DNA of 60,547 bases, taken from contig JAJPHK010000169.1 in NCBI GenBank assembly GCA_021325315.1, positions 1 to 60,547 of the forward strand, written 5' to 3'. Below, piece by piece: positions 3,111 to 46,554 of the stretch. A model generated the notes under the pieces. It worked only from the letters and a program-made list of their open reading frames with translations. It was not told the origin of the DNA and did no database searches. Each line of letters opens with the position of its first letter. Position 1 is the first letter of the stretch. The stretch is from Alphaproteobacteria bacterium (GTDB taxonomy: Bacteria; Pseudomonadota; Alphaproteobacteria; Rhizobiales; Xanthobacteraceae). The position numbers were made by a program, and so were the translations under genes.

Positions 3111-3435
3111 TTCATTCCCCCAGCCCGGGCGAGTCGCGCCCAACTTTTGTTCAAGGAAATCGTGCAGAGACTTGAGGTTCTGCGCAATAGGGAGGATTAC
3201 GGATGGAAGCCACCGCCGGGGCAGCTTTGCGTCCTGCCGTCTTCAATTTCTTCAATGTTTTCATTGGCCTGTCGCGCGGTCAAAAATCCTGCACACCAGG
3301 CTACTTTCCTTTCTCCAAGCAAAAATTCCGGGCTGTGACCGCACTGCAACAGGTGACGTAGCGTCAACTTGTAGTCTATGAACCCGCACGGGATGATCGG
3401 GATACGCTTCTCACCCTGAAAAAAGAGGAAAGCCT
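3111..3435. other. Divergent intergenic region between fadL and FAH-family gene
   Basis: About 325 bases separate two divergently transcribed genes, so promoters for both must lie here. Near 3423 'agaggaaag' is a good ribosome site for the plus-strand gene. I see no convincing ORF, RNA or perfect palindrome in this interval. Confidence 0.5.
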
Positions 3436-38215: not shown

Positions 38216-38590
38216 TCAATGCGCGAACGCCATGAGAAACGACAGACAGGCCGCAGCCCCCGAAAACGCGAGCAACGAACTCCTGCCGTCAACGAACCGA
38301 TCGGAGAAGAGCTGAAGCAAAAGCGGAGCGGCCAACACCACCGCTCCTCCGCCGATCACAGCAGCATACCACGGTACGCTGGCCTGGACGAAATAAATAC
38401 CGAGGGCAACGCAAACAAGCGAAAGCGCGATTGTTCCGAAGAGAATGAGGCGGCCCGGGGCGGTTTTTAATTTTTTCGAACGGTGCTCAACCGGAAAATG
38501 CCCGCTTGCCGCGAGCGCATACATCGAGGCGGCAAGCAGAAGCGCCATGAACAAAACGAGGTTTACGATCTGCATGAGCGACAGACTCAT
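38216..38590 (-). CDS. Small four-helix membrane protein, unknown function
   Basis: This 124-residue protein has four predicted hydrophobic segments (about 5-28, 48-68, 75-95, 104-122) joined by short loops. The ribosome site AGGGGAG supports the annotated ATG. It lies 13 bases upstream of the DMT transporter start, so the two are probably co-transcribed. Divergent from the PanB-like gene, whose operator lies in the shared 118-base gap. No family recognised. Confidence 0.75.
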   Translation of the reverse strand: MSLSLMQIVNLVLFMALLLAASMYALAASGHFPVEHRSKKLKTAPGRLILFGTIALSLVCVALGIYFVQASVPWYAAVIGGGAVVLAAPLLLQLFSDRFVDGRSSLLAFSGAAACLSFLMAFAH

Positions 38591-38661
38591 CGAAACTCCC
38601 CTTTCGGCCCGGACGCAAAATCGCGCTTGCGCCCGGCCTCGCGATTCGTAACATATATGAG

Positions 38662-38671
38662 AGATATATCA
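38662..38671. promoter_or_regulatory. Predicted GntR operator 1 (AGATATATCA)
   Basis: This differs by one base from the TGATATATCA palindrome found before the two other operons. It ends 38 bp before the PanB-like start. A second partial palindrome, 'catatatga', immediately precedes it (38652-38660). It lies upstream of the operon that encodes the GntR regulator, consistent with autoregulation (inference). Confidence 0.6.
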
Positions 38672-38708
38672 CTTGTATCTGCAATAAGGGCAAGCACTGC
38701 GGGGGAAC

Positions 38709-39611
38709 ATGAACGCGCAAGATCCGAAAGCCGCGAAGAGCGTGTCCGAGCCGGAACGGAAAAAGCGGACCATCACCGAAATTCGCGAGTCGAAGAAAAC
38801 GGGGGAAAAGATGGTCTACATGTCCGTCCCCGACTACACCTCGGCGCAATGGGCGGAGAAAGCCGGAGTCGACGTCGCGGTTCTCGGCGACAGCCTCGCG
38901 ATGATCTCGCACGGGCATGCGAGCACGATTCCCGCAACAATGGATATGATGATCATGCACGGCCAGGCCGTGCGCCGCGGCGCACCGAATACCTTTGCCC
39001 TCGGCTGCATGCCATACCAAAGTTACAACGCCGTCGATCGCGCGCTGGAAAACGCAACTCGCTTTATGCAGGACGCTCTCATGGACGCGGTAAAGCCGCA
39101 GGGCGGCAAGTCGCAAGCGCATATTTTGAAGGCGCTGGTGGACGCGGGCATTCCTACCGCCTCGCATATCGGTCTCACGCCCCACACCATCGCGATGTTC
39201 GGCGGCTTCAAGATTCAAGGCCGCACGGCGGAAGCCGCCATGAAAATCCTTGAGGACGCGCTCGCGATCGAGGACGCCGGCTGCTTCATGCTCGAATTCG
39301 AGGCGGTGCCCGCGAAAATCGCGAAGCTGATTTCCGAGCAGCTTACGATCCCGACGATCGGTATTGGCGCCGGCAACGGCACCGACGGGCAAATTCTGCT
39401 CTGTTACGATCTTCTCGGCGTATTTACCGATTTCAAGCCGAAATTCACCAAGCGGTACGCAAAACTTACCGAAGTCGCGGTCGACGGCATCAAGCAATAT
39501 GTGAAGGAAGTGAAAGAAGGCGCGTTCCCCGACGACGACCATTCCTATGGCGTGAACGAGCCCGAATATGAGAAGTTCGCAGCGATGGTCGCAAAGCGGC
39601 GGCAGATTTGA
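38709..39611 (+). CDS. PanB-like enzyme (ketopantoate hydroxymethyltransferase family), divergent
   Basis: The fold family is clear: VAVLGDSLAM (Asp61), VRRGAPNTFALG, GIPTASHIGLTPHTI, FKIQGRT and TIGIGAGNGTDGQIL match PanB in order over 300 residues. Relative to E. coli PanB as I recall it, Asp45 is kept (Asp61), but Asp84 of 'ADLPF' is Cys100 ('GCMPY') and Glu114 of 'KIEGG' is Gln131 ('KPQGG'). The catalytic Glu181 is kept (Glu198). Two of three metal-ligand positions are thus changed. No panC is nearby. It is first in an operon with a GntR regulator and DUF6166-type gene, so a catabolic or other C-C lyase role is more likely than pantothenate synthesis. Confidence 0.8.
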   Translation: MNAQDPKAAKSVSEPERKKRTITEIRESKKTGEKMVYMSVPDYTSAQWAEKAGVDVAVLGDSLAMISHGHASTIPATMDMMIMHGQAVRRGAPNTFALGCMPYQSYNAVDRALENATRFMQDALMDAVKPQGGKSQAHILKALVDAGIPTASHIGLTPHTIAMFGGFKIQGRTAEAAMKILEDALAIEDAGCFMLEFEAVPAKIAKLISEQLTIPTIGIGAGNGTDGQILLCYDLLGVFTDFKPKFTKRYAKLTEVAVDGIKQYVKEVKEGAFPDDDHSYGVNEPEYEKFAAMVAKRRQI

Positions 39612-39631
39612 GCGGCTCGAAGCGAGGGAAA

Positions 39632-40324
39632 ATGACGAAACATATGGCGGTCCCGAAGAAAAATCAGACGACCCGCCTGACGAAAGGCGTGCAGACGCTG
39701 ACCGAAGAGGCCTATGCGCAGATCGAGGAGCGGATCGTCACGCTTCGCCTGAAGCCCGGCGAGGTGCTTTCCGAACAGGCCCTCTCCGTCTCGCTCAAGA
39801 TCGGCCGCACGCCGATCCGCGAAGCGTTGCAGCGGCTCGCCCGCGAAGGATTGATCATCGTGCTGCCGCGGAAGGGCATTCTTGTTTCCGATATCAACCC
39901 GCGCAAACAGCTCCTTGTGCTCGAAGTGCGGCGCGAACTGGAACGCCTGTTGAGCCGTTCCGGCGCCGAGCGCGCAACCAAGGAAGAGCGCGAACAGCTG
40001 ATGGAAACCGGCCGCGCGATGGATGTCGCCGGCAAGAACAACGACGACATCGCCTTCATGCGCCTCGACAGCGATCTCAACCGGCTTTTGCTTGAGGCCG
40101 GTCATAACGAATATGCGGCGCGCGCAATGCGCCTCACGCAGGGTCTTTCTCGCCGCTTCTGGTACATGCATTACCGCGAAGCCGCCGATCTTCCGCTTTG
40201 CGCGAAGTTGCACGCTGAGCAAGCGCGCGCAATCGCCAAAGGCGATCCCGCAAAGGCGGCAAAAGCTTCCGACTATCTCATGGACTATGTCGAAAGCTTC
40301 ACCCGCACGACAGTCGAAGTGTAA
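39632..40324 (+). CDS. GntR-family transcriptional regulator (FadR/FCD type)
   Basis: The start is MTKHMAVPKK after GCGAGGGAAA; the ORF track's TTG start is less likely. The N-terminal winged helix-turn-helix (about 24-90) has 'LKPGEVLSEQALSVSLKIGRTPIREALQRLAREGLI'. The C-terminal FCD effector domain (about 95-225) has 'LDSDLNRLLLEAGHNEYAARAM', with Asp/His residues as in metal-binding FCD domains. It is the second gene after the PanB-like enzyme (20-base gap). The conserved palindrome TGATATATCA before three neighbouring operons is its probable target. Confidence 0.92.
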   Translation: MTKHMAVPKKNQTTRLTKGVQTLTEEAYAQIEERIVTLRLKPGEVLSEQALSVSLKIGRTPIREALQRLAREGLIIVLPRKGILVSDINPRKQLLVLEVRRELERLLSRSGAERATKEEREQLMETGRAMDVAGKNNDDIAFMRLDSDLNRLLLEAGHNEYAARAMRLTQGLSRRFWYMHYREAADLPLCAKLHAEQARAIAKGDPAKAAKASDYLMDYVESFTRTTVEV

Positions 40325-40336
40325 CGGAGTGAAACG

Positions 40337-40636
40337 ATGAAAACTTACGAGGGAAAGCGAACCATCGACGGCCTGCGCGTCACGGTCGACGGCAAGCCGC
40401 TCGGGGAGCACTACGAAGTCAAGAAGTTCACGAACTTCGGTTTCGAATGGACCTATGAGGGCGAAAGTCCGCGCCAGCTCGCGCTCGCAATTTTGGTCGA
40501 CTATCTCGGTGACAACGAACGCGCGATCCGGCTTTCCGAACCGTTCATGAAAGCGGTGGTCGCCAATCTCGATAACGACTGGACTCTAAAGAGCAACGAA
40601 ATCGACAGCGCCCTGAAAAGCATCGAGAAACATTAA
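40337..40636 (+). CDS. DUF6166-like protein
   Basis: This 99-residue cytoplasmic protein shows 'KTYEGKRTIDGLRVTVDGKPL' at the N terminus, 'GFEWTYEGESPRQLALAILVDYLGDNERAIRL' in the centre and 'WTLKSNEID' at the end. That order matches what I recall of the DUF6166 family. No function is known to me. It starts 12 bases after the GntR stop with GGAG just upstream, so it is the third gene of the operon. Confidence 0.75.
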   Translation: MKTYEGKRTIDGLRVTVDGKPLGEHYEVKKFTNFGFEWTYEGESPRQLALAILVDYLGDNERAIRLSEPFMKAVVANLDNDWTLKSNEIDSALKSIEKH

Positions 40637-40699
40637 CAAAACCGATGCAGGCGGGGTCCGATTCCGCTTGCGCCGCGGCTTGTTTCTGTGACATGGCAC

Positions 40700-40709
40700 T
40701 GATATATCA
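40700..40709. promoter_or_regulatory. Predicted GntR operator 2 (TGATATATCA)
   Basis: This perfect 10-bp palindrome, in the context ACTGATATATCATT, ends 58 bp before the start of the Liv-type binding-protein gene. It is the same sequence as operator 3 and one base from operator 1. Position and symmetry fit an FCD-type GntR site. Confidence 0.65.
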
Positions 40710-40767
40710 TTCGAAAGAATAAAAACGCACCGGCAAAACCGGGACAACCACCCTGGGGAGGATCCAA

Positions 40768-42045
40768 ATGAAGAAGTTCTCACGCCGTACTTTGCTGAAA
40801 TCCGCCGCCGCCATCGGCGCGCTCGCGCCCGCCGGCGTCTTTGCGCCTGCGATCGCGCAAAACAAGCCGCTCAAGATCGGCATTCTCGCGCCGCGCTCAG
40901 GGATAGCCGCAAGCGCCGGCCTGAACGGCATCTACGCCGCCCAATGGACAGTCGAGAAATTCAATGCCGCGGGCGGCATCGCCGGCCGCAAGGTCGAGCT
41001 TGTAATTGAGGATGAAACCTCCCCGAAGGACACGATTGAGCGCTTCTCCAAGCTCGTGCAGCAGGAGAACGTCGATCACGTTCAGGGTATCGTATCGACC
41101 GGCGTCGGGCTCGCGCTCGGTCCTGTCGTCGAAGAAGCCAGAGCGCTTACGATTTTCTGGGACGGCACGACCCAAGACGGCGTCGTCGAGAAACTTCCGA
41201 ACCCGAAATATCTCTTCAAGAGCACCGACAACGAATGCGAAGCGGTGATGTCGTCGCTGCTCGCCGTCAAATACTGGAAGGGCAAATTCAAGCGGATCGC
41301 GGGCATCAATCCCGACTATTCCTATGGCCGCAACAACATGGCCGCCTTCGTCGCGATCCTGAAACGCTTCAACATTGAGCATGAAGTCGTAACCGAGCAG
41401 TGGCCGAAGGTCGGTACCATGGATCTCACGAGCCATGTCGCCGCGCTGCAGGCGGCAAAGCCCGATCTCATTTTCTCCTCGCTACTGTTTGCGGATCTTC
41501 CCGTGTTCATGAAGCAGGCGCACGCCGCGGGTCTCACGCAAAGCGCGAAGCTCGTCTTCCCGGCCGCCGGCTGGCAACAGACGGCGCTGAAGAAAGAATT
41601 CACGCCGGAAGGCATGCTGTTCGGCTGCAATACGCTCTCCTTCGACAATCCGAAAGCGAGCGCCACTGCGAAGGAATTCGTCGCCTGGTATCATGACAAG
41701 CACAACGACTATCCGAACTGGGAAGCGGACCGCGCTTACTTCTCCCTGATTTCCTACAAGCAAGCCTACGAGAAGGCTGCGAAGGCGAAAGGCGGCACCC
41801 CCTCCACCGACGACATCGCGCAGGCGATGGTCGGCCTCGAGGTCGAAAGCCTCGGCGGCAAAGGCGGCTGGCGCAAGGATCACATCGCCGACCAGACCTT
41901 CGTGCAGGGCCTGACGACACACAAGAACAAGTACGATTTCGTCACGCTCGGCGAGCAGCAGGACACGATGTACTCAACCGAGCTGCAGAAACCTGCCGGC
42001 GCGGATTTCTGGGAGTGGATCAAGACCGCGAATTTCAAGGTCTGA
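40768..42045 (+). CDS. Liv-type ABC substrate-binding protein (Tat signal)
   Basis: This periplasmic binding protein is 425 residues with a twin-arginine-type signal SRRTLLKSAAAIGALAPAGVFAPAIAQ. The mature part starts 'NKPLKIGILAPRSGIAASAGLNGIYAAQWTVEKFNAAGGIAGRKVELVIEDE', the type I periplasmic fold used for amino acids, amides and aromatic acids. It starts an operon with livHMGF-like genes (19-base gap) and has its own copy of the TGATATATCA site. The ligand is unknown; co-regulation with the PanB-like enzyme suggests a related substrate. Confidence 0.88.
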   Translation: MKKFSRRTLLKSAAAIGALAPAGVFAPAIAQNKPLKIGILAPRSGIAASAGLNGIYAAQWTVEKFNAAGGIAGRKVELVIEDETSPKDTIERFSKLVQQENVDHVQGIVSTGVGLALGPVVEEARALTIFWDGTTQDGVVEKLPNPKYLFKSTDNECEAVMSSLLAVKYWKGKFKRIAGINPDYSYGRNNMAAFVAILKRFNIEHEVVTEQWPKVGTMDLTSHVAALQAAKPDLIFSSLLFADLPVFMKQAHAAGLTQSAKLVFPAAGWQQTALKKEFTPEGMLFGCNTLSFDNPKASATAKEFVAWYHDKHNDYPNWEADRAYFSLISYKQAYEKAAKAKGGTPSTDDIAQAMVGLEVESLGGKGGWRKDHIADQTFVQGLTTHKNKYDFVTLGEQQDTMYSTELQKPAGADFWEWIKTANFKV

Positions 42046-42063
42046 TAGACTCCATAGCGTTCG

Positions 42064-42945
42064 ATGTCTGCGTTTGCCAACATATTGCTCGGCGGCGTTT
42101 TCCACGCCGCCGTGCTCTTCCTCGTCGCCGCCGGGCTGCAGCTCGTCTTCGGCGTGCAGAAAATTTTGAATCTCGCCTGCGGCTCGTTCTACGCGCTCGG
42201 CGCCTATTTCGGCATCAGCTTCGTCGCCCACATGACGAAATACGGAATGCCGCCGTGGCTCCTCCTGCCGGCGTTAATCGTCGCGGGATTGTTGATCGGC
42301 CTGATCGGGCCGTTCATCGAGCGGCTCCTGCGCTTCGTCTACGACCGCGACGAAAGCTTTCAGCTCCTCCTCACCTTCGCTATCCTTCTGATGTTCCAGG
42401 ACGTGTTCCGCTTTCTGTGGAGTGCGAATCCGCTGCAGGTAAACGTCGATTACCTCGTTTACGGCAAGCTTTCGTCCGGCGATTTTTCCGTGCCAGTCTA
42501 CAATCTCATGGTGATCGCCGCCGCGATTTTGATCGCGGCCGGACTTGGCCTCTTTCTGCAGAAAACCAATTACGGCCGCGTGCTGCGCGCGACCGCCGAG
42601 AACCGCGCCATGGCCGAAGCCCTCGGCGTGAACGTGCGGAGCGTCTATGCCGTCGTGTTCACTGTCGGCACGATGCTGGGAACGGTCGCGGGCACACTGG
42701 TGATCCCGACGGCCGCCGCATCGCTCGAAATCCCCGGCGAATTCGTCGTGGAAGCTTTCGCCGTCGTCGTGATTGGCGGGCTCGGATCGATGCCAGGAGC
42801 GCTCGCGGGTGCACTTGTCGTTGGCCTCATTCATGCGCTTTCGATCGTGATTTATCCTGAGCTTGAGCTGCTCGTGACATATCTGATCGTGATCGGCGTC
42901 CTTCTCTTCCGGCCTGCGGGCCTGTTCGGAAAGCCCGCGACATGA
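42064..42945 (+). CDS. LivH-type ABC permease
   Basis: This 293-residue inner-membrane permease belongs to the branched-chain amino acid transporter family. 'GLQLVFGVQKILNLACGSFYALGAYFG' matches the LivH N-terminal signature. The family loop 'ALGVNVRSVYAVVFTVGTMLGTVAGTL' and 'FAVVVIGGLGSMPGALAGALVVG' follow. It overlaps the LivM gene by 4 bases. It forms a heterodimeric channel with the next gene product. Confidence 0.92.
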   Translation: MSAFANILLGGVFHAAVLFLVAAGLQLVFGVQKILNLACGSFYALGAYFGISFVAHMTKYGMPPWLLLPALIVAGLLIGLIGPFIERLLRFVYDRDESFQLLLTFAILLMFQDVFRFLWSANPLQVNVDYLVYGKLSSGDFSVPVYNLMVIAAAILIAAGLGLFLQKTNYGRVLRATAENRAMAEALGVNVRSVYAVVFTVGTMLGTVAGTLVIPTAAASLEIPGEFVVEAFAVVVIGGLGSMPGALAGALVVGLIHALSIVIYPELELLVTYLIVIGVLLFRPAGLFGKPAT

Positions 42946-43946
42946 AATCGAAATATGCCCTCCTCCTCGCCGCCGCGGGGATCGCCGCCCTGATCGCGCT
43001 TCCGCATTTCGCGCGGCCGTTTTACGTGAGCTTGATGATTCCGTTCTTCGCTTATGCGATTGCGCTTCTCGGCTTCAATCTTCTGTTCGGCTATAGCGGC
43101 TTGCTTTCGTTCGGCCACGCGATGTTCATTGGCGTCGGCGCTTATGGCACCGCCATCGTTTCCGGTGTGCTCGGCATCAAGAGTTTTGAAGTGGCGCTCA
43201 TCGCGGTCATCGTAGGCGCCACGCTGATCGCGGTTCCCATCGGCGCGCTGTGCGTGCGCTACACCGGCATTTTCTTCGGCATGCTGACGCTCGCCTTCGG
43301 CATGCTCTTCCACTCCTTCCTGTTCAAGTTCTATTACGTCACCGGCGGCGACAGCGGTATGCGCGTGCCGCGCATGGACATCCTCGGGCTCGAATTCGCG
43401 CAATACAACAAGATCGGCTTCCTCACCGGCCCGTTTTACTATTACTGCCTCGTTCTCATGGTGATCGCCGGCGCCGTTATGTGGCGGATCGTGCATTCGC
43501 CCTTTGGCCTGCACCTGAAGGCGCTCCGGGATAATCCGCGCAAGGCGGAATATCTCGGCGTGCGCGTGTGGCAATTCCGGCTCGCGGCTTTCGTGATCTC
43601 CGCGATCTTTGGCGCGATAGGCGGCGCGATCCTGGGTTTCCGTGTGGGCCTTGCCGATCCCGAACTCGTCTATTGGACGCATTCGGGCCAGCTCGTGTTC
43701 ATGACCGTGCTTGGCGGCTTCTCGAATTTCTTTGGGCCGATCATCGGCGCCCTCACCTACACGCTCTTGCAAGACCAGTTGCAATCGCTCACGCAATATT
43801 GGCGCTTCGTGCTGGGAGCCGTGCTGGCGATCATTGTGATCGGTTTCCCGGGCGGTATCGCCGGCGCAATCGAGGTCTTGGCGGCTCGCCTTCGCCAGCG
43901 CAAAACCGAAAGCGCTACGGCAGTAAAAAAGGCGGTGACGCCATGA
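42942..43946 (+). CDS. LivM-type ABC permease
   Basis: This 334-residue second permease has 'IALLGFNLLFGYSGLLSFGHAMFIGVGAYG' as its LivM hallmark, 'RDNPRKAEYLGVRVWQFRLAAFVISAIFGAIGGAI' as the coupling region, and 'TVLGGFSNFFGPIIGALTYTLLQ' near the end. The C-terminal tail is hydrophilic (RLRQRKTESATAVKKAV). ATGA overlaps at both ends indicate tight translational coupling. Confidence 0.92.
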   Translation: MKSKYALLLAAAGIAALIALPHFARPFYVSLMIPFFAYAIALLGFNLLFGYSGLLSFGHAMFIGVGAYGTAIVSGVLGIKSFEVALIAVIVGATLIAVPIGALCVRYTGIFFGMLTLAFGMLFHSFLFKFYYVTGGDSGMRVPRMDILGLEFAQYNKIGFLTGPFYYYCLVLMVIAGAVMWRIVHSPFGLHLKALRDNPRKAEYLGVRVWQFRLAAFVISAIFGAIGGAILGFRVGLADPELVYWTHSGQLVFMTVLGGFSNFFGPIIGALTYTLLQDQLQSLTQYWRFVLGAVLAIIVIGFPGGIAGAIEVLAARLRQRKTESATAVKKAVTP

Positions 43947-44704
43947 CCATCCTCTTGCAGACCAACAGCGTCGGAAAGGCCTATGGCGCCTATCGCGCGC
44001 TTTCGGACGTCAGCATCGCCGTCAATGCCGGCGAAAAAATCTCCATCGTCGGCCCCAATGGCGCGGGCAAAACGACGCTTGTGAACCTGCTCACGGGTCT
44101 GCTCGTCCCGACCGAAGGCGAGGTTTTCTTCAAGAACGAGAATATCGCGGGCCGCGATCCGGTGGCGCTTGCCGAGCGCGGGCTCGCGCGCGCATTCCAG
44201 CTTGTGCACATCTTTCCGAAACTCACCGTCGAGGAAACGATCGCCGCCGCAATCGTCACGCGTCAGAAGAAACGCTGGCGGATGTTCTCTTCGCTCCATG
44301 GCGACACGAGCGTGACAAAACGCGCACGTGAAGTCGCCGAAATCTTCGGACTGGAAAATCGGCTCGATACGGTTTCGCAACTTCTCTCCCAGGGCGAAAA
44401 GAAGCTCCTCGATGTCGCCTCCGCCTTCGCGCTCGAGCCGGAAGTCATTCTTCTCGACGAGCCGACCTCCGGCATCTCGACGAACGACAAGCATCGCGTG
44501 ATGAAGACGCTGATCGCCGCCGCCGAACGCGCGGGTGTGAAAGCCATGATCCTGGTCGAGCACGACATGGATCTGGTCGCCACCTATTCCGACCGCATCA
44601 TCGCGATCGCCGAGGGAAAAATGCTCGCGGATCTCCCGCCGAAACAATTCTTCTCGACCGAATCCGTGATCGAAATCGTCGTCGGCAAAAAACGGAGCCA
44701 CTGA
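43943..44704 (+). CDS. LivG-type ABC ATPase
   Basis: The start is MTILLQTNSVGKAYG, overlapping the livM stop; the ORF track's longer start is in livM. It is 253 residues. Walker A is GPNGAGKTT and the Q-loop region is RAFQLVHIFPKLT. The signature is an atypical LSQGEKK in place of the more usual LSYGQ/LSGGQ. Walker B is VILLDEPTSGIS and the H-loop is LVEHDMDLV. Its ATP-hydrolysis partner is the next gene. Confidence 0.9.
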   Translation: MTILLQTNSVGKAYGAYRALSDVSIAVNAGEKISIVGPNGAGKTTLVNLLTGLLVPTEGEVFFKNENIAGRDPVALAERGLARAFQLVHIFPKLTVEETIAAAIVTRQKKRWRMFSSLHGDTSVTKRAREVAEIFGLENRLDTVSQLLSQGEKKLLDVASAFALEPEVILLDEPTSGISTNDKHRVMKTLIAAAERAGVKAMILVEHDMDLVATYSDRIIAIAEGKMLADLPPKQFFSTESVIEIVVGKKRSH

Positions 44705-45423
44705 TGCTGTCCGTGCGCGATCTCACCGTCGACATTCAAGGGAGCCGCATCCTGCGCGGGATTTCGATCGAGGTGAAAGCGGGCGAGCTCGTCTGCCTTG
44801 TCGGCCGCAACGGCGCCGGCAAAAGCACCACCTTCCGCACCATCATGGGCTTCCGCCGTCCTGTCTCCGGCACAATCGATTTCAACGGCGAAAGTCTGCT
44901 CGGCCGCCGCCCCTTCGAGGTCGCGCGGCAGGGCATCGGCTTTTCGCCGGAGGAAAGCGAAGTGTTCGGCGAACTCACCGTCGCCGAGAACATCGCGATG
45001 CCCACCTGGCCGCAGGCGGGCGGCCGCAACCAGCAGGAGCGCGCAGCCCTCGCCTACGAAGTCTTCCCCAAACTCACGCGCTACCGCGATCGCGGCGGCC
45101 AGGAGCTTTCCGGCGGCGAGCGCAAGATGGTGTCGATCGCCCGGGCGCTCGCGTCCGACCCGAAGCTTCTCCTGCTGGATGAGCCGACCGAGGGTCTGTC
45201 GCCCGCCGTGATTCCCGCGATTGTGGACGGCATCGCCTCGATCCGCGCCCTCGGGCACGCAGTCTTCATCGCCGAGTCGAATGTCCACCACGTTCCCGAA
45301 TTCGCCGACCGGCTCTATGTCATTGAACGGGGAGAGATAATTTTCACTGGCCTGCCGAAGGACGCCGCTAGGCACCCGGCTGTCGCCAAGGTCATCGCGG
45401 GCAGCACGGAACCCGCGATCTAG
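44704..45423 (+). CDS. LivF-type ABC ATPase
   Basis: This is 239 residues with Walker A GRNGAGKST, signature LSGGERKMVSIARA and Walker B LLLLDEPTEGLSP. The usual H-loop 'EQN' is ESN ('FIAESNVHHVPEFADR'). A one-base overlap (TGATG) couples it to livG. It ends the five-gene importer operon; the third palindrome site follows 34 bases downstream, upstream of the next operon. Confidence 0.9.
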   Translation: MLSVRDLTVDIQGSRILRGISIEVKAGELVCLVGRNGAGKSTTFRTIMGFRRPVSGTIDFNGESLLGRRPFEVARQGIGFSPEESEVFGELTVAENIAMPTWPQAGGRNQQERAALAYEVFPKLTRYRDRGGQELSGGERKMVSIARALASDPKLLLLDEPTEGLSPAVIPAIVDGIASIRALGHAVFIAESNVHHVPEFADRLYVIERGEIIFTGLPKDAARHPAVAKVIAGSTEPAI

Positions 45424-45457
45424 CGGATTGACCCGGAATTCGAGCGTGATAGACTAC

Positions 45458-45467
45458 TGATATATCA
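45458..45467. promoter_or_regulatory. Predicted GntR operator 3 (TGATATATCA)
   Basis: This perfect 10-bp palindrome, in the context ACTGATATATCACA, ends 52 bp before the hydroxylase-superfamily gene. It is identical in core to operator 2, including the flanking AC. It is the evidence that the desaturase-like operon belongs to the same local regulon. Confidence 0.65.
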
Positions 45468-45519
45468 CAGATCAAAGGAAGACCCGCGAAAGCGGGCACA
45501 GCAAAGCGGAGAATGAACC

Positions 45520-46290
45520 ATGATCAGCGAGCGCCAAATCGCCTTTCGCCAGGAATACCGGTCCCGCATCATGGGCTGGTACGACGGCTACTTTCACATT
45601 CTCATCATCTACGCGATGGGTGCGGCCGCCTTCTACATCTACCTGCAGCACATCGAAAACGTGACCTGGCTCGAATGGCTAACCGTACCGATTACGTTCC
45701 TGTTCACGAACGTCTTCGAATGGGCCGTGCATAAATATGTCATGCACCGGCCGGTCAACATCAAAGGCCTGCGTTCGGTCTACGAGCGCCACACGCTGAA
45801 CCACCACCAGTTCTTCACCGACGAGGAAATGCGCTTCCGCGACCACAAGGACTGGCGTGTGACGGTGTTCCCGCCCTACGCGCTTGTCGTCTTCATCCTG
45901 ATGTCGCTCCCGGGCGCCATCGTCCTTGGCTACATCTTCTCGCCGAATGTCGGCTGGCTGTTTATGGCGACGACGACCGGCATGTACCTCATCTACGAGT
46001 TCATGCATTTCTGCTGCCACGTCGATGAAAACTGGTTTGTGCGCAACTGCCCGTTTGTGAACACGCTTCGTCGCCACCACACCGCGCATCACAATGCGCG
46101 GCTGATGATGGAAACGAACATGAACCTCACCTTCCCGATCGCGGATTGGCTGTTCGGCACATCCGATCTCGATCGCGGCCTCCTGGGCACGCTGTTCAAC
46201 GGCTATGACACACGCTATCTCAAGAAAAACCTGCGTGGCACACCGAAGCGGCCCGACGTCGCGGCCGCCCAGCCGATCGGAGCGGAATAA
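45520..46290 (+). CDS. Fatty acid hydroxylase / sterol desaturase superfamily membrane protein
   Basis: This 256-residue di-iron membrane oxygenase family protein has hydrophobic segments near 25-45, 52-70, 118-138 and 144-164. The metal-binding histidine clusters are HKYVMH (71-76), HTLNHH (91-96), HFCCH (163-167) and HHTAHH (186-191), the arrangement expected of the superfamily. It is preceded by the same palindrome as the two upstream operons. The substrate cannot be inferred: lipid, sterol, hopanoid or carotenoid hydroxylation are all possible for the fold. Confidence 0.87.
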   Translation: MISERQIAFRQEYRSRIMGWYDGYFHILIIYAMGAAAFYIYLQHIENVTWLEWLTVPITFLFTNVFEWAVHKYVMHRPVNIKGLRSVYERHTLNHHQFFTDEEMRFRDHKDWRVTVFPPYALVVFILMSLPGAIVLGYIFSPNVGWLFMATTTGMYLIYEFMHFCCHVDENWFVRNCPFVNTLRRHHTAHHNARLMMETNMNLTFPIADWLFGTSDLDRGLLGTLFNGYDTRYLKKNLRGTPKRPDVAAAQPIGAE

Positions 46291-46301
46291 GGAGTCGCGC
46301 C

Positions 46302-46496
46302 ATGCCGAATGACGTCAAAGCGATTGTTTCGGCGATCACCCTGATCGTGGCGGCGGTGCTCGCTTACTGGAGCAAGTCGCCGGTGCACCACGACCTCGCA
46401 AATGTGGTGATGATCACAGCGGTCTTCATGGTGATCGCGATGTGGGTCTTCCCCGAAGCGGGGGTGAAAAAAGGCGACGTGAAGAAAATAAAATAA
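46302..46496 (+). CDS. Small two-helix membrane protein
   Basis: This 64-residue protein has two hydrophobic segments (about 6-23 and 31-50) and a lysine-rich C-terminal tail (KKGDVKKIK). It starts 11 bases after the hydroxylase stop and ends just before a strong terminator, so it is the second gene of that operon and possibly an accessory subunit. No family recognised. Confidence 0.72.
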   Translation: MPNDVKAIVSAITLIVAAVLAYWSKSPVHHDLANVVMITAVFMVIAMWVFPEAGVKKGDVKKIK

Positions 46497-46518
46497 GTTC
46501 GCCTCGATCCTTGTGCGG

Positions 46519-46554
46519 AAACCCCGGCACCAATGCCGGGGTTTTTGCTTTTTT
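46519..46554 (+). terminator. Rho-independent terminator of hydroxylase operon
   Basis: The stem aaaccccggca-ccaa-tgccggggttt is followed by ttgcttttttgg, 22 bases past the stop codon. It is a strong GC stem with a T-rich tail. Confidence 0.85.

Follow-up and report, generated by a model that had tools for sequence, protein, structure and literature searches.

A candidate local regulon of a GntR/FCD regulator with a tandem palindromic operator in Proteobacteria

We analyzed a 60,547-nucleotide stretch of contig JAJPHK010000169.1 (assembly GCA_021325315.1, an alphaproteobacterium of the family Xanthobacteraceae; hereafter, the window), in which three adjacent transcription units are preceded by the same, or nearly the same, palindrome. 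These units encode a PanB-like enzyme, a GntR/FCD regulator, a DUF6166 protein, a five-gene Liv-type importer and a membrane di-iron hydroxylase with a small membrane partner. With a probability of about 0.8, judged from sequence comparison, they form one local regulon under the GntR/FCD repressor encoded in the first unit. One regulon joining these genes had been proposed in a sequence-only reading of this DNA, and the proposal is supported here by conservation of the putative operator, by synteny, and by the tracking of the operator by an orthologue of the regulator even where the two are unlinked. Local regulons under a GntR/FCD protein are, as a type, already known.

Putative operators and their conservation

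Exact copies of the palindrome TGATATATCA are located at positions 40700-40709, 58 bp before the start codon of livK (40768), the first importer gene, and 45458-45467, 52 bp before the start codon of the hydroxylase gene (45520), precisely as the sequence-only reading had it. A copy with one mismatch to TGATATATCA, namely AGATATATCA, lies at 38662-38671, between panB and a divergently transcribed membrane protein gene; its coordinates had been given correctly, but the gap to the panB start codon (38709) is 37 bp rather than 38. The features of the cluster are as follows.

38216..38590, minus strand: 124-aa membrane protein (open reading frame), divergent from panB, with a common operator region
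38649..38671, plus strand: putative operator O1, TAACATATATGAG-AGATATATCA, ahead of panB-gntR-DUF6166; its main palindrome carries one mismatch
38709..39611, plus strand: PanB-like enzyme, 300 aa, distinct subfamily (PF02548, 1.6e-94)
39632..40324, plus strand: GntR/FCD transcriptional regulator, proposed operator binder (PF00392, 8.2e-19; PF07729, 2.1e-18)
40337..40636, plus strand: DUF6166 protein, 99 aa (PF19663, 1.4e-29)
40689..40709, plus strand: putative tandem operator O2, TGACATGGCAC-TGATATATCA, preceding the importer operon
40768..42045, plus strand: Liv/HAAT-type substrate-binding protein (PF13458, 7.3e-56)
42064..42945, plus strand: permease, LivH type (PF02653)
42942..43946, plus strand: permease, LivM type (PF02653)
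43943..44704, plus strand: ATPase, LivG type (PF00005)
44704..45423, plus strand: ATPase, LivF type (PF00005)
45447..45467, plus strand: putative tandem operator O3, TGATAGACTAC-TGATATATCA, preceding the hydroxylase operon
45520..46290, plus strand: membrane di-iron hydroxylase, FA_hydroxylase superfamily (PF04116, 1.6e-9)
46302..46496, plus strand: 64-aa membrane protein that constantly accompanies the hydroxylase
46515..46548, plus strand: hairpin resembling a Rho-independent terminator, at the end of the hydroxylase operon (15-pair stem, then a T run)

The window contains three sites with at most one mismatch to TGATATATCA, against 0.41 expected, and 2 of 100 shuffled sequences reach this number. 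Pattern searches over the 2.94-Mb assembly detected exactly two perfect copies, both inside the cluster, so that the genome-wide abundance that had been named as grounds for refutation was not observed; at one mismatch or less, there are nine sites, three of which belong to the cluster (five for the reversed control). Because 0.3-1.4 exact copies are expected per genome under Markov models, the two copies are weak proof by themselves; the rare part is their placement, with both located within ~345 bp of the 5' intergenic DNA of the cluster, for which the chance under random placement is ~1e-8.

Conservation across genomes is, in our view, the decisive evidence that the putative operator is real. 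In other genera of the same family, the palindrome again precedes livK and the hydroxylase gene. The broader comparison set consists of 80 named loci that were collected by a search with the hydroxylase alignment and come mostly from metagenome-assembled genomes of alpha-, beta-, and gammaproteobacteria (hereafter, related loci). In this set, sites with at most one mismatch are present upstream of the genes for the hydroxylase (34/78), PhyH (14/26), DUF6166 (21/45), LivK (8/10), and PanB (9/30). For the same gene sets, 29 control palindromes with a composition equal to that of TGATATATCA yielded means of 0-0.48 per set and maxima of 0-6, and the operon-internal genes for GntR, DctM, and DctP showed no upstream sites at this threshold in the related loci. 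The remaining PanB promoters mostly carry ACATATATCA, which is two mismatches off, or weaker matches. O1 is the weakest of the three operators in the window, and at its position relatives have TAACATAYGAG-ACATATATCA or TAATATATCA. The same operator precedes each operon and is kept in orthologous loci, as is required of a single regulon. Both the sharing of the site, found before the orthologues of these genes in numerous genomes of alpha-, beta-, and gammaproteobacteria, and the synteny of the gene set, conserved among the related loci, bear out the earlier proposal.

The operator is longer than the short palindrome originally described, which is itself real. In an alignment of 95 sites oriented with transcription, a second conserved box is found exactly 11 bp upstream of the palindrome, with the consensus TGAYAT, weaker than the palindrome half (T,.80; G,.57; A,.72; T/C; A,.62; T,.62; A,.75), and one related locus contains two near-perfect boxes, TAATATATCAT-TGGTATATCA. 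Unlike the lone TGATATATCA, the tandem form is nearly specific to the cluster: among 385 genomes of the class, the pattern TGAYANNNNNNTGATATATCA has six matches, of which two are in the source genome, both in the cluster, one lies beside another copy of the cluster, and three are without cluster genes. The natural reading of this geometry is that two dimers most likely sit side by side on the tandem operator.

The candidate binder combines an N-terminal GntR helix-turn-helix domain (PF00392, 67.5 bits, cut-off 27) with a C-terminal FCD domain (PF07729, 67.4 bits, cut-off 24.3), in agreement with the original assignment. Where the motif is present and no gntR gene is linked, a close orthologue of the regulator (59-68% identical) is encoded elsewhere in 9 of 10 genomes, compared to 3 of 14 genomes in which the hydroxylase locus lacks the motif (Fisher two-sided p = 0.0028, in a test that is small and unblinded because we picked the genomes ourselves from the set of related loci).

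Gene content and a possible pathway

The core of the cluster comprises the PanB-like enzyme, the GntR/FCD regulator, the DUF6166 protein, the membrane di-iron hydroxylase, and the 64-aa membrane protein. The members listed in the sequence-only reading are all real, but they add up to ten genes, not nine, and an eleventh, divergent gene (38216-38590) had been overlooked; its 124-aa product has counterparts at 26-55% identity in 16 related loci, in most cases encoded next to panB, and is likely an additional member of the regulon. The description of the hydroxylase as a di-iron membrane enzyme with a small membrane partner holds: the protein contains the full set of FA_hydroxylase histidine clusters (HX3-4H, HX2-3HH, HX3H, and HX2-3HH), with 11 histidines invariant in 22 homologues (H71, H76; H91, H95, H96; H163, H167; H186, H187, H190, H191), and the 64-aa protein has a homologue in 64 of the 80 related loci. 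A structural model of the hydroxylase (predicted local distance difference test, pLDDT, 74.5) had no match in a PDB fold search at E<=0.001, and a PDB sequence search with the hydroxylase profile produced only spurious receptor matches. DUF6166 is encoded in 45/80 related loci, and its model (pLDDT 83) likewise had no PDB fold match. In L074 (4778-5344), L086, and L087, a hemerythrin-like gene is inserted between gntR and the DUF6166 gene; its product may serve the di-iron enzyme as a partner for oxygen or iron. Neither an Rfam scan nor a tRNA scan of the window gave any match.

The PanB-like enzyme satisfies the family profile (TIGR00222, 285.5 bits, cut-off 207.55) and belongs to the same Pfam family as ketopantoate hydroxymethyltransferase. 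In Escherichia coli PanB, three acidic residues, D45, D84, and E114, are Mg ligands. The enzyme retains the equivalents of D45, K112, H136, and E181; among its orthologues, however, D84 is replaced by C in 28/29 and E114 by Q in 29/29, so that only one of the three Mg ligands, D45, is kept. A role in pantothenate biosynthesis was rejected because a separate, canonical PanB with all Mg ligands is encoded elsewhere in the source genome. A third PanB gene (G000 C151:19584-20357, L146), located directly after a GcvT-like aminomethyltransferase gene, also keeps the canonical Mg ligands. In the SAR116 locus L118 (557-6228), a second PanB paralogue together with PdxA-like and DUF1537-kinase-like genes (annotated by eye) is found beside PhyH, divergent from the DUF6166 gene, and this gene company hints at acid-sugar chemistry.

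The five-gene importer is preceded by the same operator, as originally proposed, but it lies outside the core and is an exchangeable module. Liv-type ATP-binding cassette importers, as in the window, lack PhyH in 10/10 loci, and the tripartite ATP-independent periplasmic (TRAP) transporters found elsewhere are usually accompanied by this dioxygenase (22/30). The TRAP binding protein has its best PDB match in TakP/SmoM (2hzk, 9e-46) and is also close to 2zzv, these being binders of alpha-keto acids and lactate; in the relatives, the genes for this TakP-type transporter are linked to those for PhyH and the hydroxylase. Corrinoid-methyltransferase genes are linked to the cluster in 4/80 loci, and the operator precedes a corrinoid-protein gene in two other genomes (L048, L086). 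In L048 (3406-19299), a full corrinoid one-carbon set (UroD-B12 fusion, corrinoid protein, UroD, methyl-tetrahydrofolate enzyme, activator, and MetF-like protein) flanks the cluster, and operators stand at 3406 and 13267. Some relatives share with corrinoid methyltransferase systems (MtgC, CmuA-like) the UroD-type methyltransferase, corrinoid protein, activator, and methyl-tetrahydrofolate enzymes; near the cluster of the window, no corrinoid methyltransferase genes were found, the rest of the source genome not having been searched for them. In L055 and L062 (2-9.5 kb), BoxB/PaaK/PaaI/PaaG-like genes occur by the hydroxylase gene, and the palindrome separates the PaaG-like gene from the operon that follows; an aromatic substrate was not accepted on this basis, the annotation being by eye only.

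We infer repression, the nature of the inducer, the order of reactions, and the substrate from the family of the regulator, from the -10-like sequence that overlaps the operator, and from the gene content. The regulator would bind TGAYATNNNNN-TGATATATCA as a pair of dimers spaced by one helical turn (11 bp); the strong half of this operator contains TGaTATATC, which resembles an extended -10 element. As long as inducer is absent, transcription of panB-gntR-DUF6166 (autoregulation), the divergent membrane gene, the importer operon, and the hydroxylase operon would be blocked. Either the compound taken up or an intermediate is probably the inducer; a carboxylate is plausible, being what regulators of this family usually bind. 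In a survey of the FadR subfamily, its regulators are described as sensing small carboxylates, with genes that often sit with their targets (PMC4494728). In induced cells, the compound would be imported and then oxidized by the di-iron hydroxylase together with its small membrane partner, and the product would be processed by the PanB-derived enzyme with its altered metal site, one-carbon units passing to tetrahydrofolate. Only tentatively, then, do we outline a catabolic pathway in which a small acid would be imported and oxidized. The aerobic version of it, in which the hydroxylase, with or without PhyH, and the metal-altered PanB act on an imported 2-oxo or 2-hydroxy acid, from which a one-carbon unit is cleaved or transferred, is a possibility to which we give somewhat less than even odds, and the assignment of DUF6166 and the 64-aa protein to that pathway as dedicated components is conjectural to the same degree.

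Alternative readings

Several observations weigh against a single regulon controlled by the GntR/FCD protein of the cluster. One genome (G511) carries the motif without a detectable GntR orthologue, and three genomes with the orthologue have no motif before that copy of the hydroxylase gene. Genomes of the family that lack the orthologue hold ~0.5 copies of TGATATATCA each, well above the reversed control; most of these copies are not close to any GntR gene. Among the GntR paralogues, some (L019, L020, L024, L143) have TGATATATCA upstream. The half-sites, TGAT-AT-ATCA, near-invariant over the 95 sites, differ from the TKGT/ACMA consensus (GT-N2-3-AC core) of the FadR subfamily, to which exceptions such as BioR and NanR are listed in the survey (PMC4494728). 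Autoregulation is the least certain element because O1, the operator before the gntR operon, is the weakest site, and because the importers switch, substrates may differ between lineages. The copies outside the cluster and those at the paralogues would fit a palindrome that serves a different protein, either a GntR paralogue or some global factor, with the GntR of the cluster acting elsewhere. We consider this quite unlikely given that, in the source genome, TGATATATCA is confined to the cluster, that the tandem form is nearly restricted to it, and that operator and orthologue co-occur even when unlinked; the use of TGATATATCA by paralogues, such as the one in L143, suggests instead a motif common to this GntR subfamily. 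In the carrier genomes inspected, copies of the palindrome outside the cluster had no apparent connection with it, except for L143 (5568-6315, Betaproteobacteria bin90), where TGATATATCA is upstream of a paralogous GntR gene beside genes for a UroD-type methyltransferase and an ASKHA activator. In L149, L156, and L157, TGATATATCA is embedded in another conserved context, TGATATATCATTGTGATTCGG, and none of the three has a GntR gene in the vicinity; this appears to be an element of a different kind.

The conserved element could also be mainly a promoter (extended -10, TGaTATATc), inasmuch as TGATATATC resembles an extended -10 and the sites are AT-rich and lie ~50-60 bp before start codons. This seems highly improbable: the element is perfectly palindromic, the C and A of its right half included, and near-invariant over the 95 sites, which is unneeded for a -10, the second box stands at a fixed 11 bp, and the element tracks one regulator and is absent from other promoters of the source genome. 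A pure promoter element was rejected on account of this invariance and of a sigma-70 scan that found no promoter there above chance. A further reading accepts the regulon and takes the pathway to be biosynthetic or membrane-lipid-modifying rather than catabolic for an imported compound, which would suit a hydroxylase superfamily that acts on lipids and carotenoids, a partner that is a small membrane protein, and some loci in which no importer is linked to the core. However, the operator repeatedly precedes importer genes, the TRAP binding protein is nearest to the alpha-keto-acid and lactate binders, and corrinoid one-carbon genes join the regulon in relatives, so we regard this reading as unlikely, if less so than the two preceding ones.

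Significance and relation to known systems

The local regulon proposed here unites DUF6166, a divergent PanB subfamily, a hydroxylase with its constant partner, and interchangeable importers in one testable unit spread through many mostly uncultured soil and marine bacteria, for which the tandem operator provides a specific search string. This unit points to a common environmental compound with an undescribed breakdown route; if the pathway outlined above is correct, it would be an undescribed aerobic pathway across soil and marine Proteobacteria. What appears to be new is the group of orthologous regulons, which has an operator and a gene set of its own: the literature searched, which included few subscription journals or preprints, yielded no description of it and, for the motif, DUF6166, and the combinations of gene families, nothing relevant and no clue to the substrate, in keeping with the earlier statement that no named pathway is known to have this gene set.

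The closest parallels are the local catabolic regulons of FCD regulators such as LldR, GlcC, DgoR, and PdhR, which, according to the FadR-subfamily survey (PMC4494728), likewise combine a GntR helix-turn-helix with FCD, have the regulator gene inside its own regulon, and use short palindromes just before operons along with extra, weaker half-sites. Additional half-sites 7-12 nt from the site centre are reported there for 13 FadR groups, and the weaker box beside the palindrome described here is a feature known in, though not defining, that subfamily. Unlike these regulons, the present one has TGAT/ATCA half-sites and a tandem box at a fixed 11 bp, and its gene set fits no group named in the parts of the survey consulted. 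Repeated boxes are also characteristic of NanR, an FCD GntR regulator of which several dimers bind closely spaced boxes, three of them on (GGTATA)3 (PMC8012715); the NanR boxes are direct GGTATA repeats, whereas here a full palindrome is combined with one degenerate copy, before unrelated target genes.

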